DNA of 64,000 nucleotides, taken from positions 1 through 64,000 of the forward strand of contig PXRZ01000014.1 in NCBI GenBank assembly GCA_003022945.1. Reading direction: 5' to 3'. Positions 3,236 through 56,556 of the stretch are shown here, piece after piece. Position numbers and translations under genes: made by a program. This stretch comes from Halobacteriales archaeon QS_8_69_73 (GTDB lineage Archaea; Halobacteriota; Halobacteria; Halobacteriales; Haloarculaceae). The stretch's first letter is position 1. Each line of letters begins with the position of its first letter. The notes below the pieces were generated by a model, which was not told the DNA's origin, ran no database searches, and was given only the letters and a program-made list of their open reading frames with translations.

Positions 3236-5128
3236 ATGGCAGACGGTGAGGAAGCGACCGACGAGATGTCCGGTGGGCTCCAGGTGGAGCTGTTCCATCC
3301 GGAGTCCGACCGCGAACCGGGGGACACGAACATCCGGGCGCTCGGGTTCGACGTTCACCCGGTGGTGTTCCCGGTCGCGCTGGTCATCGTCACCCTGTTC
3401 ATCCTGGTGACGGTGTTCTACCGGACGATCGCCGCCGCACTCGGGTGGACAATGAGGGTGTCGCAAGACACGGCCGACGAGGAAGGCTATGAGGTCCTCA
3501 GACAGGCCGGCGACCAGGTGGTGGTCTACCAGAGCGCCCAAGACGCCTACACCGTGATATTTGACTTCATCGGAGCCAACTTCGGCTGGTTCTACCTGCT
3601 GGCCGTGAACATCTTCATCGTAGTGTTGTTATACTTCGCACTCGGAAAGTACGGCACGATCAAGATCGGCGGGGTCGAGGCCGAAAAGGAGTTCAGCAAC
3701 TTCTCGTGGATGGCGATGCTGTTCAGCGCCGGGATGGGGATCGGCCTCATGTTCTTCAGCGTACTCGAACCGGTGTTCTACTACCAGTCCACGCCCGGCT
3801 TCTGGGGCGCCGAGGGCGGAACCGATGCGGCCGCCTCGGCGGCGATGGCCCAGACGTTCTTCCACTGGGGCTTCCACCCGTGGGCGGTCTACGGGCTCGT
3901 CGGCCTCGGGCTGGCGTTCTTCTCGTTCAACCGCGGCCTGCCACTGACGTTCCGGTCGATCTTCTGGCCGCTGCTCGGCGAGCGCATCTACGGATGGCCG
4001 GGACACATCATCGACCTGGTGACGGTGTTCGCGACGCTGTTCGGCCTGTCTACCTCGCTGGGGCTGGGCGTCGCCCAAGTCAACAGCGGGATGGGGTACG
4101 TCGGCGGGAACATCCTCGGGGTCGTCAGCGGTCCGATCCTCCCGGAGTTATTCCCCAACCTCGCGGAGGCCGTCCTGATCGGGCTGATCACGATCATCGC
4201 GGCCTTCTCGGTCGCGGCGGGCCTCGACGGGGGCGTCAAGCGGCTCAGCACGCTGAACCTCTATCTGATGTTCGGCCTGCTGGGCTTCATGCTGATCGTC
4301 GGACCGACGATCTTCATCCTCGGTGCGTGGATCGAGGGGCTCGGCACCTACTTCGCGAACGTCGCCCAACTCGGCTTCTACCGCGGGACGATGGGTCCCG
4401 GCGGCGGCGTCGTCACCGATTGGACGATCTTTTACTGGGGCTGGTGGATCGCGTGGTCACCGTTTGTCGGGATGTTCATCGCACGCATCTCGAAGGGCCG
4501 CACCGTCCGCGAGTTCGTCTTGGGGGTCCTGCTCCTCCCGTCGATGTTCTCGACGCTGTGGCTGTCGACCTTCGGCGGTGCCGCACTCGCCCCATCCGTC
4601 CAGGAAGGCGGGAGCGGCGCCGTCGTGGGCGCGTACAACGACCTCGGCTACACCGCCTTCGAGACGCTCGGCATGTTCGTCATGCTGAACAACTACCCGC
4701 TCGGCGCCATCACCGGGTCCCTGGCGACATTGCTCGTGGTTACGTTCTTCGTGACATCGTCGGACTCGGGGTCGCTGGTCATCGACCACCTGACCTCCGG
4801 CGGCAAGCACGACGTCCCAAGGGTCCAGCGCATCTTCTGGGCGAGCACCGAGGGCTTCGTCGCGGCCGTGCTCCTGATCGGGGGCGGCCTGGACGCGCTG
4901 CAGACCGCCGCCATCACGACCGGGTTGCCGTTCGCGGTGATCCTGTGTCTAATGTGTTACACGGTCTATCTGGGACTCGACAATGAATACCAGATACTCG
5001 AATCCGAGGAGTTCGCCGAACGGATCGAGGACCTCAGCGACCAGGGCGAGGTCGACATCGTGACCACCGGCGACGAGGTGGTCACCGACGTCAGTGGGGG
5101 AGACGAGGCCGGCAGCAGCAGCGACTGA
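3236..5128 (+). CDS. BCCT family (betaine/carnitine/choline) transporter
   Basis: 630 aa, many TM helices; FSAGMGIGLMFFSVLEPVFYY, WGFHPWAVYGLVGLGLAFFSFNRGLPLTFRS, FYWGWWIAWSPFVGMFIARISKGRTVREF. Confidence 0.95.
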   Translation: MADGEEATDEMSGGLQVELFHPESDREPGDTNIRALGFDVHPVVFPVALVIVTLFILVTVFYRTIAAALGWTMRVSQDTADEEGYEVLRQAGDQVVVYQSAQDAYTVIFDFIGANFGWFYLLAVNIFIVVLLYFALGKYGTIKIGGVEAEKEFSNFSWMAMLFSAGMGIGLMFFSVLEPVFYYQSTPGFWGAEGGTDAAASAAMAQTFFHWGFHPWAVYGLVGLGLAFFSFNRGLPLTFRSIFWPLLGERIYGWPGHIIDLVTVFATLFGLSTSLGLGVAQVNSGMGYVGGNILGVVSGPILPELFPNLAEAVLIGLITIIAAFSVAAGLDGGVKRLSTLNLYLMFGLLGFMLIVGPTIFILGAWIEGLGTYFANVAQLGFYRGTMGPGGGVVTDWTIFYWGWWIAWSPFVGMFIARISKGRTVREFVLGVLLLPSMFSTLWLSTFGGAALAPSVQEGGSGAVVGAYNDLGYTAFETLGMFVMLNNYPLGAITGSLATLLVVTFFVTSSDSGSLVIDHLTSGGKHDVPRVQRIFWASTEGFVAAVLLIGGGLDALQTAAITTGLPFAVILCLMCYTVYLGLDNEYQILESEEFAERIEDLSDQGEVDIVTTGDEVVTDVSGGDEAGSSSD

Positions 5129-24130: not shown

Positions 24131-24195
24131 ACCCGGCGTTCGGCGCCGGCGGTCAAGGAGGCTTCGCTTTCCCGTCCGTCGGCGGTCGTGCTTAG

Positions 24196-24520
24196 TTACG
24201 AGGAAGTAGCGTGCTTCGGCGGTGATGGCAGCGTTTCCGAACGCCCCCTCCCGCTCGCGGGCTGCGGCTCACGGCTCGCTTCGCTCGCCGTTCGCAACTT
24301 CGAGATACCTCGCTCTCGCTCGGTATCTCGCGACGCCTCGCTGCGCGCGGCCGGTGGCCGTGCGTGCGTCGGCTCGCTCCGCTCCGCGGCTCCCTGCAGT
24401 CGCCGCTCCGCCTCGAGGCCTCCCTCGCTGCGCTCGCTCGGCCTCGCTCCCCGAGCGGTCGGCCCCGTTCGAGTTCCCGCCCGATGTCGGCTGCCCGGCC
24501 GGCTCTCGCCCAACTAAACA
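24196..24520 (+). repeat. Dispersed GC-rich repeat, copy 1
   Basis: Starts GCGGTGATGGC..CCGAACGCCCCCTCCCGCTCGCGGGCTG, CTCGC-rich interior, ends GCGGTCGGCCCCGTTCGAGTTCCCGCCCGATGTCGGC. Confidence 0.8.
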
Positions 24521-24572
24521 GGGCACCGTCGACGACCGTCTGGATTAAGTACCGACCGGCCGCAGGCGGAGC

Positions 24573-29770: not shown

Positions 29771-31423
29771 TCAGGGCTGCCAACCGACCACCCCCTCGCG
29801 GCCGCCGAACTCGATTCGCCGCACGAGTAGCGCCGCGGCGGCGACACACACTGCGGCGACGCCGACGATCGCCGTCGGCACCGACCGGCCGTCCGGGCCC
29901 GACCAGTCGGCCCGGAACACCGACGCGTAGTAGCCGGCGACCGCCGACCCCTCGAGGGCGACGGCGACCTCGCGGTTCTCGGTCCGGGAGGTCCGCCCCC
30001 AATTGAGGCTCCCGACGACCGCGGTGTCGTCGACGACGACGCCCTTCGAGTGGACCTTCTCGTAGCCGTCGGGGTCGTCGACGCGGGCCTCGAGGTCCCA
30101 GCCCTCGGCGTCCGCCCGGCGGTTCAACCACGCCGCCAGCGCCTCGTTGTCCTCCTTGACGTACCAGCCGCTCGAGAGGTGGACCCGGGCGGTCACGCCG
30201 CGGTCGGCAGCCCGCAGGACGGCCCGCAGCAGGCGGTCGTCCCGGCTGCCGATGGTTACCTGCTGAACGAGCACCCGCTCGTCGGCGGCGTCGATCCGCG
30301 CGGCGACGGCGTCGGCGGCGTTGTCGGGCCCGACGAGCACCGTCGCCGCTTCGACCGATACCCGACGCGGGTCGTGTCGCGCCGGGAACTCGCCGACCGC
30401 GGGATTGGCGGCGGCGAACGTCCGACCCTCGCGGTAGCGCCCCCAAGGGGTCGCCGCCCGCCAGCCGCGATCGGTCGCATGGAGCCCCGCCAGCGCCTCG
30501 GCCGCCTCGGCGTTCTCGAGGACGACGCCCCAGCCGCGGCTCGACATGCCGCCCGTGCCGGCCGGCTTGAAGTTCTCCGTCAGCACGAGCGCTCGGTCGT
30601 CGACGACGGCGTACTTCGGGTGGTGGTGATCGTACCTCGCGTACGGGCCGGTCGGGAGGCGGACGTCGACGCCCGCCGCCGAGAGCCGGTCGAGCAGCCT
30701 CGCCTGGCGGTCGGTCATCCCGCCGACGGGCGACCCGCCGAGGAGAACGTGGACCTCGACGCCGCGGTCCCGTGCCGAGAGCAGCGCCTCGACGACCCGC
30801 TCGGAGGTGAGCGTGTAGCCGGCCAGCAGCAGGCGGTCGTCGGCGCTGCGGAGCGTCTCGACGGTTCGATCCGGCGCGTCCGGGAGGACGAATGCCGTCG
30901 CCCGGCCGCCGTCCGTTCGGACCGGCGCCAGGTCGGTCGCGCCGAGCGGGCGCCAGGCGCCGCGGGAGACGTTCCACACCTCCGCCTCCAGAGCGTCCCG
31001 GTAGCGGACCGCGGCGACGGTGTCGGTCCCCCGCCGGAGCCGGAGGTCGTCGCCGCCATTGGCGAGACGCAGCCGGCCGTCAAGTCCGACGACCGGGGCG
31101 TCGGCGTGTGTCGCCGCGGCCTCCGGCGTCGTCGAGAGGGCGACCGCCCCCGACAGCGTCCGGTTCGGAAGCCTCGCCGCCGTCGTGCCGTCGGTCAGCG
31201 TCCAGCCGGTCGTGTTCGTCGCCCGCGGGAACCGGACGACGACGAACTCGCCGGGGTCACCGCGCTCGACGGGGTCGGGGTAGACGGCGACGAGCGTCGC
31301 GTTCGCCGCGTTCGACGCGTCCGTCGCGTCCGGGCCGTCACTCGCGGCCACGACGACGCCCGGAGCGGCCGCGACGGTGACGAGTACGACGGCGAGCACG
31401 GCGACGAGTGGACGGGAGCGCAC
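29771..31423 (-). CDS. Secreted phospholipase D-like protein with lamin-tail-like N-terminus and C-terminal TM
   Basis: Two HxK motifs: YDHHHPKYAVVDDRALVLTENFKPAGTGG and YEKVHSKGVVVDDTAVVGSLNWGRTS; C-terminal hydrophobic segment; GTG start inferred. Confidence 0.85.
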   Translation of the reverse strand: MRSRPLVAVLAVVLVTVAAAPGVVVAASDGPDATDASNAANATLVAVYPDPVERGDPGEFVVVRFPRATNTTGWTLTDGTTAARLPNRTLSGAVALSTTPEAAATHADAPVVGLDGRLRLANGGDDLRLRRGTDTVAAVRYRDALEAEVWNVSRGAWRPLGATDLAPVRTDGGRATAFVLPDAPDRTVETLRSADDRLLLAGYTLTSERVVEALLSARDRGVEVHVLLGGSPVGGMTDRQARLLDRLSAAGVDVRLPTGPYARYDHHHPKYAVVDDRALVLTENFKPAGTGGMSSRGWGVVLENAEAAEALAGLHATDRGWRAATPWGRYREGRTFAAANPAVGEFPARHDPRRVSVEAATVLVGPDNAADAVAARIDAADERVLVQQVTIGSRDDRLLRAVLRAADRGVTARVHLSSGWYVKEDNEALAAWLNRRADAEGWDLEARVDDPDGYEKVHSKGVVVDDTAVVGSLNWGRTSRTENREVAVALEGSAVAGYYASVFRADWSGPDGRSVPTAIVGVAAVCVAAAALLVRRIEFGGREGVVGWQP

Positions 31424-31485
31424 ACGGCGGCCTGGCTCCGTCCCGGTACAAGAACCTGTGGTCGACCTGCGTGGCAGTGTTCGGA

Positions 31486-31545
31486 CAAGCGGTTGCCGGC
31501 CGACCAAACCCCGCTGGGTGGGACTGAAAGGGGCCGGGCTCTCGG
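31486..31545 (+). repeat. Dispersed repeat head, copy 1
   Basis: GTTCGGACAAGCGGTTGCCGGCCGACCAAACCCCGCTGGGTGGGACTGAAAGGGG; resembles the reverse complement of 38190-38255. Confidence 0.6.
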
Positions 31546-31559
31546 CCAGCCCCGGACGC

Positions 31560-31900
31560 TCGCGGCGCATAGCGCCGCGAACTCGAGAGAGCGACGCTCT
31601 CCCGGTGACGCAAGCGGAGAGGGAGCCGTCGGCTCCCTCAGGCAGTCGGCGCCGTGCGCCGACGACAGAGAGGGATCGAAGATCCCTCAGGCAATCGGGC
31701 ATTGCCCGATGACAGCGAAGGACTGGAGGTCCCTGGGCCGCTCGCGCGACGGAGCCGCGCGAGAAGACCGCAGGACGGAGTCCGAGGACCGTGGCTCGAA
31801 AGATGGCTTCACGAACGTCGTTCGTCATACCGGAAGAGCTTCGCTCTTCCGTAGATCGCGGATCTCCGATCCGCTCACTCCCGGAAATCGCCGATTGCCG
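31560..31900 (+). repeat. Tandem array of about 13 short perfect/near-perfect hairpins, mostly with 3-nt loops
   Basis: TCGCGGCGC-ata-GCGCCGCGA; GAGAGC-gac-GCTCTC; GAGGGAGCC-gtc-GGCTCCCTC; GTCGGCGC-cgt-GCGCCGAC; GAGGGATC-gaa-GATCCCTC; ATCGGGC-att-GCCCGAT; CTCGCGCG..CGCGCGAG; ACGAAC-gtc-GTTCGT; GGAAGAGC-ttc-GCTCTTCC; GCGGATC-tcc-GATCCGC and others. Confidence 0.9.
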
Positions 31901-32026
31901 GAGACAGCGAGTCGCGGCGGCCGAGAGTCCGGGGGCTTTCGAAATCCTCCCTGTCCACACTCCAACTCCACGTCTCTTATCTGAACGCTATCTGTGGAAC
32001 GAATCACTCTCTCGCGGCCAATAGAA

Positions 32027-32467
32027 TCAGCCTTCGCCGATTGTGGAGCCAACTCCAGCCCGGTGTCGCTGGACGGCACGTTCGAGACCGCCCGCCAGCA
32101 GCGCGAGCGCGAACACCGCGACCCATCCGACGAGGTAGACGCCCAGAGGCGATATCAGGTCCGCCTGCCCCGGGTCTCCGGCGGCCTCGAACCAGAACGC
32201 GGCACCGAACGGGACGAACACCACGACGGCGGGCGAAATCAGCCCCCATCGGTCGTACGCGTAGACCGGAGTGGCGCCGAGTAAGAATACGCCCGGATAC
32301 ATCGCACCGAAGAGCAACTGTGCGTCCGGCGGTGCCTCGAGTAACTGGTACGGAACCACCTCGAGCGTGAACGCTCCGCGCACCCAGTTTGTGGCGTTCA
32401 GCGCGACTACCAAGAAGATGAGCCCGGAGGCCGCTGCAAGGGCTGCTCGTCGCACGCGTCGGCTCAC
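32027..32467 (-). CDS. Membrane protein, hypothetical
   Basis: 146 aa, four hydrophobic segments (GLIFLVVALNATNWV, QLLFGAMYPGVFLLGATPVYAY, ISPAVVVFVPFGAAFW, VYLVGWVAVFALALLAGG). Confidence 0.7.
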   Translation of the reverse strand: MSRRVRRAALAAASGLIFLVVALNATNWVRGAFTLEVVPYQLLEAPPDAQLLFGAMYPGVFLLGATPVYAYDRWGLISPAVVVFVPFGAAFWFEAAGDPGQADLISPLGVYLVGWVAVFALALLAGGLERAVQRHRAGVGSTIGEG

Positions 32468-38132: not shown

Positions 38133-38141
38133 CGCGGAGTA

Positions 38142-38255
38142 GTGTTCGGAAAAGAGGTTCGTGGTGGGAGAAAGGACCAGCGAGGAGTTCGAAAGTCCCA
38201 TTTCAGGCCCCCGACGGGGTACGCTCGGCTGGCCATCGCTTATTTGAACACCGGT
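38142..38255 (-). repeat. Dispersed repeat, copy 2
   Basis: Reverse complement GTTCAAATAAGCGATGGCCAGCCGAGCGTACCCCGTCGGGGGCCTGAAATGGGACTTTCG resembles 31486-31545. Confidence 0.55.
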
Positions 38256-39479: not shown

Positions 39480-39561
39480 CCGCGCTCCGACGGCTCGGGC
39501 TCCGACCTCCTGGTCGCCGCCCGAGCCGAAAGGTACATACCGGAGACCCCGCAAGTTCAGA

Positions 39562-39871
39562 GCGGACTAGGTCGGGCGGTTAGGCCCCGCTCGTCACCCG
39601 CGCTATGGTCTTCAGCGGGGACCGAATCCGGGGTTCGTCTGGCCCGACCAGTGCGGGCCCCGCAAGCCAACGTCGAAGCCTCGTCCTGCGAGGGCAGCGG
39701 TCCCCGGTCCGGCGTCTGCAGGGACGCCCGACCGGAGTTAACCGCGGGTAATCCGCCAGGCACGGAAGTGAGCAGCGGACCCGCGGACAGCTGTCGCCCG
39801 CAGGGTCGCGGGGTGGAGGAGGCACGCGGGACTCCCCGTGCTGGAACGGACAGGCAACCCCCGGCGTCCGT
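39562..39871 (+). ncRNA. 7S / signal recognition particle RNA
   Basis: ~310 nt GC-rich non-coding stretch; helix-8-like CCAGGCACGGAAGTGAGCAGCGGACC; 5' CGGAC pairs with 3' GTCCG; boundaries approximate. Confidence 0.85.
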
Positions 39872-39880
39872 TCACTCATA

Positions 39881-40000
39881 CCGAACTTTTTACACGGTCG
39901 CTCGCCGCCGGCGAGCGACCGGCAAAAATCCATGCGAATCGCCGAAGGCGATTCGCTGGATGACGAGAGGCGCCGTCGGCGCCTCTCGAACCACTTCGAT
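39881..40000 (+). repeat. Hairpin module element, copy A (three perfect hairpins)
   Basis: CGGTCGCTCGCC-gcc-GGCGAGCGACCG; GCGAATCGCC-gaa-GGCGATTCGC; GAGAGGCGCC-gtc-GGCGCCTCTC; ends CTTCGATGAAAAA. Confidence 0.85.
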
Positions 40001-52489: not shown

Positions 52490-52672
52490 ATTTCGTGAGG
52501 AGGGAGTAGTACACGTCAGCGGTGATGATGGCGTGTCCGAACGCCCCCTCCCGCTCGCGGGCTGCGCCTCGCTGCGCGCGGCCGGCGGCCGTGCTTGCGT
52601 CGGCTCGCGCCGCGAGCGATCGGCCCCGTTCGAGGTCCCGCCCGACATCGGCTGAACGGTCGGCCATAGCGT
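52490..52672 (+). repeat. Dispersed GC-rich repeat, copy 2
   Basis: GTGAGGAGGGAGTAG...CAGCGGTGATGATGGCGTGTCCGAACGCCCCCTCCCGCTCGCGGGCTGCG...CGATCGGCCCCGTTCGAGGTCCCGCCCGACATCGGC. Confidence 0.8.
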
Positions 52673-56040: not shown

Positions 56041-56337
56041 GCTCACCGATTGTGAATTTCAGTCACTTAAAAGCTCGTCGAGCAGCTGCGGTTTCGTGCG
56101 TCGTCGGAAATCCCACAGTGTCGTACGGGTCGATACCGTGGGTCACTACCAGGCGTCCTCGGTCGGCCGCACCGCCGGCACTCGCAGAAGCTCCCCGAGG
56201 CGCAGTCGACGGCATGTCCGTACCGCCGGCAGACCGCTTCGACGCCGGCGACCCCGGCCAGCACGGCCGCGCCGACGGCGGCCGTCAGGACTACCGGCGG
56301 CCGTCCGCGGGCGCCGGCTACGTTTCGTTACGCGAAA

Positions 56338-56556
56338 GCTGCCGGTCGGCCGACGTCGGGTGGGACCTCGAACGGGGCCGACCGCTCGCGGAGCGAGGCC
56401 GAGCGAGCACAGCGAGGGAGGCCTCGGAAAGCAGCGAGCGGGAGGAGCGACGACACGCGAGCATAGCGAGGCACAGCCCACGAGCGGGAGGGGGCGTCCG
56501 AAGCGCCACCGTCACCGCCGAACGACGCTATTCACTCCTCACCAAACACTATCTCG
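56338..56556 (-). repeat. Dispersed GC-rich repeat, copy 3 (opposite orientation)
   Basis: Reverse complement ATAGTGTTTGGTGAGGAGTGAATAG...CGGCGGTGACGGTGGCGCTTCGGACGCCCCCTCCCGCTCGTGGGCTG...GCGGTCGGCCCCGTTCGAGGTCCCACCCGACGTCGGCCGACCGGC. Confidence 0.8.

Follow-up and report, generated by a model that had tools for sequence, protein, structure and literature searches.

The window, a stretch of DNA of 64,000 nucleotides (64 kb), carries a gene for a PLD-domain protein at 29774-31414 and a conserved gene that runs from 32477 onward. Between them lies an element of 520 bp (31473-31992) with no transposase gene inside and an interior composed of hairpins. The first-pass annotation had described a tandem array of micro-hairpins at 31560-31900; it overlooked the closing arms, the terminal repeats, the dispersed relatives and the mobile element with IS6-type ends. 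Because the array has closing arms and terminal repeats, the true unit is 31473-31992, and the parts are the following.

31465..31472, + strand: target-site half ACCTGCGT; the empty site of the relative G311 has the matching ACCTACGC
31473..31489, + strand: left terminal inverted repeat (TIR), IS6 type, GGCAGTGTTCGGACAAG, third-best IS6 TIR score in the 64 kb
31516..31534, + strand: left arm GGGTGGGACTGAAAGGGGC, an order-wide motif with G tracts and the 5' strand of helix P0 (GAAAG), which covaries with the right arm
31535..31547, + strand: closing helix P1, 5' strand, CGGGCTCTCGGCC, pairing and covarying with the right side
31560..31580, no strand assigned: micro-hairpin TCGCGGCGC-ata-GCGCCGCGA, first of module M5
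31587..31601, no strand assigned: micro-hairpin GAGAGC-gac-GCTCTC, second of module M5, before GGTGACGCAAG
31619..31663, no strand assigned: twin module M4, unit 1, GAGGGAGCCgtcGGCTCCCTC AGGCA GTCGGCGCcgtGCGCCGAC
31670..31710, no strand assigned: twin module M4, unit 2, GAGGGATCgaaGATCCCTC AGGCA ATCGGGCattGCCCGAT
31742..31763, no strand assigned: imperfect hairpin CTCGCGCG..CGCGCGAG, M6-like
31811..31825, no strand assigned: micro-hairpin ACGAAC-gtc-GTTCGT
31831..31851, no strand assigned: micro-hairpin CGGAAGAGC-ttc-GCTCTTCCG, module M3; the loop is the reverse complement, gaa, in other copies
31858..31874, no strand assigned: micro-hairpin GCGGATC-tcc-GATCCGC, module M3
31881..31901, no strand assigned: imperfect hairpin CCGGAAATC-gcc-GATTGCCGG, whose counterparts at orthologous positions in other copies are perfect
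31919..31931, + strand: closing helix P1, 3' strand
31932..31940, + strand: right arm GGGGCTTTC, with a G tract and the 3' strand of P0, supported by P0 covariation
31976..31992, - strand: right TIR, IS6 type, GATAGCGTTCAGATAAG on the minus strand, best TIR score in the window

The 341 bp of the array contain nine perfect hairpins with stems of at least 6 bp and 3-nt loops (ATA, GAC, GTC, CGT, GAA, ATT, GTC, TTC and TCC), the highest density of 3-nt-loop perfect hairpins anywhere in the 64-kb window. All the hairpins listed in the first-pass annotation are present, some of the additional ones being imperfect, and its higher-order unit hpA-AGGCA-hpB-GACAG is real and is found again in other copies. 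The annotation had proposed shuffled sequence and related genomes as its two tests. Shuffles that preserve dinucleotide composition do not reproduce the array (mean 0.20 and maximum 2 such hairpins in 341 bp, 400 shuffles), and similar arrays are present in relatives. Both strands of the array fold more stably than shuffles, with z values of -5.6 and -5.2 on the two strands as RNA and -5.6 on each strand as DNA. Around the array, the closing arms pair 31526-31547 with 31919-31940. A CRISPR array was rejected, as the annotation had anticipated, because there is no constant repeat and there are no spacers; the direct repeat consists of only two 16-bp copies.

In three relatives (G311, G306 and G303) the two flanking genes are 7-31 bp apart, compared to ~1.1 kb in the window, which identifies an empty site. 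That of G311 reads GACCTACGCCGTCGCC. The relative G305, of the same genus and with a PLD protein 94% identical to that of the window, carries at the same target a different, shorter MITE of ~190 bp, flanked by GCCTATGC and GCCTACGC (duplication 7/8). The right flank of the window copy is TGTGGAAC, no matching target duplication for the left flank, and ~570 further bp, with a small ORF, have been gained beside the copy. Its history is therefore not one clean insertion, and a rearrangement after insertion is likely. The gained stretch, which adjoins the array, holds an ORF of 146 aa (32030-32467, minus strand) that has no Pfam match and is absent from close relatives. In Haloarcula, 6 species have an insertion of ~250 bp with the scaffold described below, or a decayed form of it, and at least 12 others among those inspected have 19-82 bp in its place.

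A matrix for IS6 TIRs was built from autonomous IS6 copies only and used to score all positions of the 64 kb. The ends of the window element take ranks 1 (right) and 3 (left), and rank 2 falls on the end of another family member, at 24184. This member (24184-24525, minus strand) has IS6-type ends and near-perfect 8-bp duplications, CCGTCGGC / CCGTCGAC. A further element of ~118 bp at 38138-38255 has two IS6-like ends and little interior. Copies in the window genome and in G305 terminate in GG[CT]NNTGTT[CT]AG.TAAG with 8-bp duplications that are perfect in the sibling copies L068 (GCTACTCC), L088 (GTCAGTCC) and L055 (GTCGCCGG); over the siblings as a whole they are perfect or near-perfect. Autonomous IS6-family elements (PF13610) of ~697 bp in the same family of hosts have ends of identical type and 8-bp duplications, for example L257 (ends and duplication GGCGGTGTTCAGATAAG / GGTAGTGTTCAGATAAG and TCCACCGG). 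Consistent with this, the features described for IS6 are 8-bp repeats, GG tips, a TGTT motif and archaeal members of 700-750 bp (PMC7986276). We assign the element to the IS6-type MITEs because of its IS6 TIRs, the autonomous ~697-bp partners, the 8-bp duplications of its siblings and the empty site in relatives. Its mobile nature is well supported, and we infer that the window copy was moved specifically by an IS6 enzyme.

A search for the IS6 transposase (PF13610) in the window genome, which is 76% complete, and in G305 found none; the same-genus genome G053 has 23 PF13610 matches. The source enzyme may be absent from the first two genomes or unsampled there, and the partner may act in trans or belong to the past. 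IS1595 was rejected as a carrier, as PF12762 loci do not have these ends, and so were the PATEs of Haloquadratum, which are defined by having no TIRs and no duplication, both of which the window family has (duplications in siblings). A phage collection searched with the element gave no match. Two IS6-family MITEs, of 227 and 336 bp, are listed in ISfinder (PMC7986276). Common to those and to the family studied here are GG..TGTT TIRs, 8-bp duplications (here in sibling copies), the lack of a transposase gene and archaeal IS6 partners of ~700 bp. In contrast to them, the elements here enclose a folded scaffold that covaries and a hairpin array that can expand, the copies are mosaic and not near-identical, and no partner gene was found in the host genome.

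The 541-bp region of the window has 42 matches in its own genome and 46 in G305, with different sub-modules shared. Of 301 genomes of the order, 162 contain its left-arm 15-mer, GGGACTGAAAGGGGC, in as many as 74 copies each and about equally on both strands, and the reversed control gives 0 matches; among the named hosts are Haloarcula, Haladaptatus, Halorussus, Natrinema, Natronococcus, Halobaculum and Haloparvum. The sequence parses as CGGG[TC]GGGACTGAAAGGGGC - P1 - core - P1' - GGGGCTTTC in 89 of the 140 exact-motif copies, in which P1 is mostly 12-13 bp long and has more than 80 distinct sequences. The scaffold thus laid out has two nested helices, P0 and P1, a G-rich internal loop between them and a core of two classes. 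Out of 298 genomes from the phylum, a covariance model of it matches 50, which all fall within the order of the window. Across 76 covariance-model matches 95.3% of cells are paired, with double changes in 24 of 29 pairs; 0 of 500 shuffles reach the observed pairing and slid partners give 31-43%. Even the seemingly constant arms pair and covary, as P0 shows in matches without the exact motif, the variants being GAAAG/CTTTC, CAAAG/CTTTG, GGAAG/CTTCC, GAACG/CGTTC, GCAAG/CTTGC, CGAAG/CTTCG and AAAAG/CTTTT. The annotation's inference of conserved pairing under changing sequence finds strong support across the order in the covariation of scaffold and P0. Two more scaffold members lie in the window, one at 52539-52643 (minus strand, covariance model E 5e-7) with the compensated P0 pair GAACG/CGTTC, and one at ~56320-56553 (plus strand, E 0.016).

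IS6 ends flank the arms at fixed distances (51 nt on the left side, 61 nt on the right) in ~14 of 87 scaffold copies, compared to 1-2 in controls. Either, therefore, the scaffold moves together with these ends in a number of lineages, or many lineages have lost them. Most copies in Halorussus and Haloarcula have no recognisable IS6 ends, so IS6 was possibly not the original carrier; at 0 of 30 loci does a scaffold copy lie beside an IS6 transposase gene. Haloarcula and others have head-to-head scaffold pairs spaced by ~45 bp. The gene context is intergenic, and the orientation to neighbours is mixed (20/18/16/12 across the four arrangements), which rules against a function as 3'-UTR or leader. 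With a simple ORF caller, copies at first seemed to be placed ~95-105 bp ahead of genes. The G tracts of the main class are conserved, GGGYGGG and then GGG/GGG between P0 and P1, and could form a quadruplex between the two helices; we word this cautiously because one subclass (TGGCGGACTGAAAGGGCG..) has GG tracts only. Archaeal repetitive quadruplex sequences are a different repeat, of Methanomicrobiaceae (PMC8044849).

Twin micro-hairpins with fixed linkers and flanks occur throughout the order, both within the scaffold and alone. We distinguish the modules M1 (gtcgtt-hairpin-TGATGA-hairpin-aaccac), M2 (linker TGGGCTG), M3 (TCATAC / TAGATC / TCACTC), M4 (AGGCA / GACAGA, the repeated unit of the window array), M5 (GCT) and M6 (GGCCG). 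The window array is one of several such modules that the order has in common. The 27 genomes with the M1 junction pattern all belong to the order; 0 of ~160 others have it, and the reversed control gives 0 matches. Among frame-selected M1 modules, with hairpins of more than 2 mismatches left out, 64 of 73 hairpins are fully paired. A lone twin module with loops gaa and gtc, linker TGGATGA and flank AACCAC lies in the window at 39934-39994, directly after the SRP RNA gene (39560-39873). Elsewhere, twin modules are located at most 45 bp from contig ends in two genomes, G007 (C3, C15) and G011 (C36, C49), and therefore probably break assemblies.

The loops and pairs of these hairpins point to DNA rather than RNA. 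Perfect hairpins have a modal loop length of 3. GNA loops, counted on one strand, make up 43% for stems of at least 9 bp versus 13% for the 4-bp hairpins taken as background; a C-G pair closes 97/101 of the former versus 111/318 of the latter. With stems deduplicated, the GNA share increases from 0.10 at stem 4 to 0.55 at stem 9 (Fisher p 8.5e-16). GNA loops on G-C stems form an ultra-stable DNA mini-hairpin, and d(GCGAAGC) melts near 78 C (PMC4686876). The 697 pairs of the twin hairpins (frame-chosen, up to 2 mismatches allowed) include 3 G-U and 7 mismatches, and in the scaffold G-U makes up 2.6% of pairs versus 4.7% for mismatched cells; the tRNA baseline for G-U is 3.8% in a small sample of 11 tRNAs. 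That G-U is rarer than mismatches is unlike the outcome of RNA selection, an argument weakened by some alignment error and by the small tRNA baseline. The loop and pair statistics support, and do not prove, that the hairpins form in single-stranded DNA.

Orthologous copies with ~95% identical flanks differ between the window genome and G305; the first-pass annotation had proposed comparing hairpin number between close strains. A 49-bp hairpin unit has been gained or lost (L052/L045), and hairpin blocks of ~250 bp are present in one genome or the other (L058/L033, L054/L084). At L064/L085 the orthologs share an identical stem but have inverted loops, GAA versus TTC, and at L060/L087 the stem is imperfect in one ortholog and perfect in the other. 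One slot reads CGAAAGAC..GTCTTTCG in some copies and CGAACGAC..GTCGTTCG in others, and half-changed intermediates exist. These differences are the steps expected if one arm were copied from the other.

We consider it probable that the element is an IS6-type MITE that carries an order-wide scaffold and has accumulated micro-hairpins which form, flip and multiply in single-stranded DNA. An IS6-family transposase acting in trans would move the element, leaving 8-bp target duplications, and paired micro-hairpin modules would accumulate in the scaffold core in the lineage of the window. The hairpins would fold in DNA that has become single-stranded in the course of replication, repair or transfer, and a polymerase could then turn back on the stable C(GNA)G loop and copy one arm from the other. 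Such copying would keep stems perfect during sequence drift, flip loops and add or remove hairpin units; we infer it as the cause of the perfect stems. A broader reading, which we offer tentatively and think rather doubtful, is that C(GNA)G triloops, fixed linkers and covarying stems form a self-expanding, order-wide grammar of single-stranded DNA hairpin modules around a scaffold with a possible quadruplex. It would spread by hairpin-templated DNA synthesis and hitch-hike on IS6 and others, as mobile DNA defined by fold and not by sequence.

The first-pass annotation had offered three guesses, of which a hairpin-templated expanding element comes closest, given the changed hairpin number and the inverted loop between orthologs, and a structured RNA is less favoured. 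In the latter reading the scaffold would be a structured non-coding RNA, or an RNA retro-element, of haloarchaea, and the array an expanded version of it. Covariation is very strong, with paired arms and core included, and an RNA could also produce it at such a level; the internal loops are conserved and the RNA folding z is about -5. Set against this, gene orientation is mixed and no AT-rich promoter column is conserved upstream of scaffold copies; Rfam covariance models run against the element gave no match at the gathering threshold or at E up to 0.5. Because of the GNA triloops, the lack of a preference for G-U over mismatches, the absence of orientation bias and the gain and loss of copies (presence/absence polymorphism), we regard an RNA as unlikely.

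The remaining guess, a multi-site array for a nucleoid, gyrase-like or recombination protein under selection for binding, would suit the conserved linkers and flanks (TGATGA, AGGCA, TGGGCTG, AACCAC) and the conserved G tracts. It appears very improbable to us, given the free variation of stem sequences and 3-nt loops, copy numbers that span 0 to >70 per genome even inside a single genus, and the gain and loss of hairpin blocks between close relatives. High copy number, hairpins, an intergenic location and the head-to-head pairs at ~45-bp spacing in Haloarcula and others also recall REP/BIME-like repeats that a RAYT-type Y1 (HUH) transposase moves in the form of single-stranded hairpins. However, no scaffold lies closer than about 1.5 kb to any of 18 Y1 loci, the copy-rich genomes G033, G034, G107 and G004 have no Y1 match, and several copies have IS6 ends and 8-bp duplications, which Y1 enzymes do not make; this reading is disfavoured and the least probable of all.

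With respect to known systems, the IS6-type MITE proposed here comes nearest, among described archaeal categories, to SMR-A of Haloquadratum (PMC3119063), likened by description and not by sequence. The SMRs are about 110 bp long, with inverted repeats, no duplication, up to 54 copies and an unknown mobilisation. The scaffold resembles SMR-A in its size of about 110 bp, its marked inverted repeats, a copy number in the tens and no or unseen target duplication; SMR-A targets IS605 palindromes, whereas the scaffold sits in ordinary intergenic DNA. Bacterial REP/BIME mosaics (PMC2817692, PMC8266576) likewise consist of intergenic hairpins in many copies, combined as mosaics and also arranged as inverted pairs. 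Unlike them, the scaffold has no linked RAYT-type gene, and it has a covarying closing helix of 12-13 bp, a core and, on some copies, IS6 ends. Mitochondrial double-hairpin or repetitive hairpin-forming elements (PMC2800124) resemble the modules in their twin hairpins, free loops, multiplication and differences between close relatives; they belong to another genome and age, and the stems here vary with pairing kept and the loops favour GNA. We found no description of this order-wide covarying family. A literature search for the left-arm motif returned no paper, with most subscription journals outside its scope, and an earlier description is possible.

Hairpins kept perfect despite sequence change are usually taken as proof of a functional RNA, and here they suggest DNA, with the caution that covariation alone does not tell RNA from DNA structure. 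If the proposed mechanism is true, these loci are a natural record of hairpin-templated DNA synthesis, many per genome and throughout the order, and ortholog pairs show the before and after of hairpin gain, loop inversion and stem correction. The origin and upkeep of palindromes becomes a testable question in model haloarchaea. The work also adds an unannotated repeat family found in many Halobacteria genomes.

Some scaffold copies have distinctive surroundings. On three Haloarcula plasmids, L438 (pHsi139, around 5001-5120), L439 and L440, a single class B scaffold lies in a non-coding stretch of 1.2-1.7 kb, perhaps as a transfer or single-strand origin. Its neighbour in L438 and L439 is a gene for a SOSS-B (single-strand-binding) like protein, and the plasmid has conjugation genes. 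Four copies in the Halorussus-type genome G076 (L093, L095, L101 and L104) have the right border of the scaffold in tandem copies (GTAGCGAGCGGGCGGGGGCTTTC...) and, at the left border, tandem repeats of 26 bp (CGGCCGGTGACACACTCCACCGAGAAT). In a Haloarcula relative (L299) a separate inverted-repeat insertion, TACGGTTTATTGTAG...CTACAATAATCCGTA, lies within the left arm of the scaffold.
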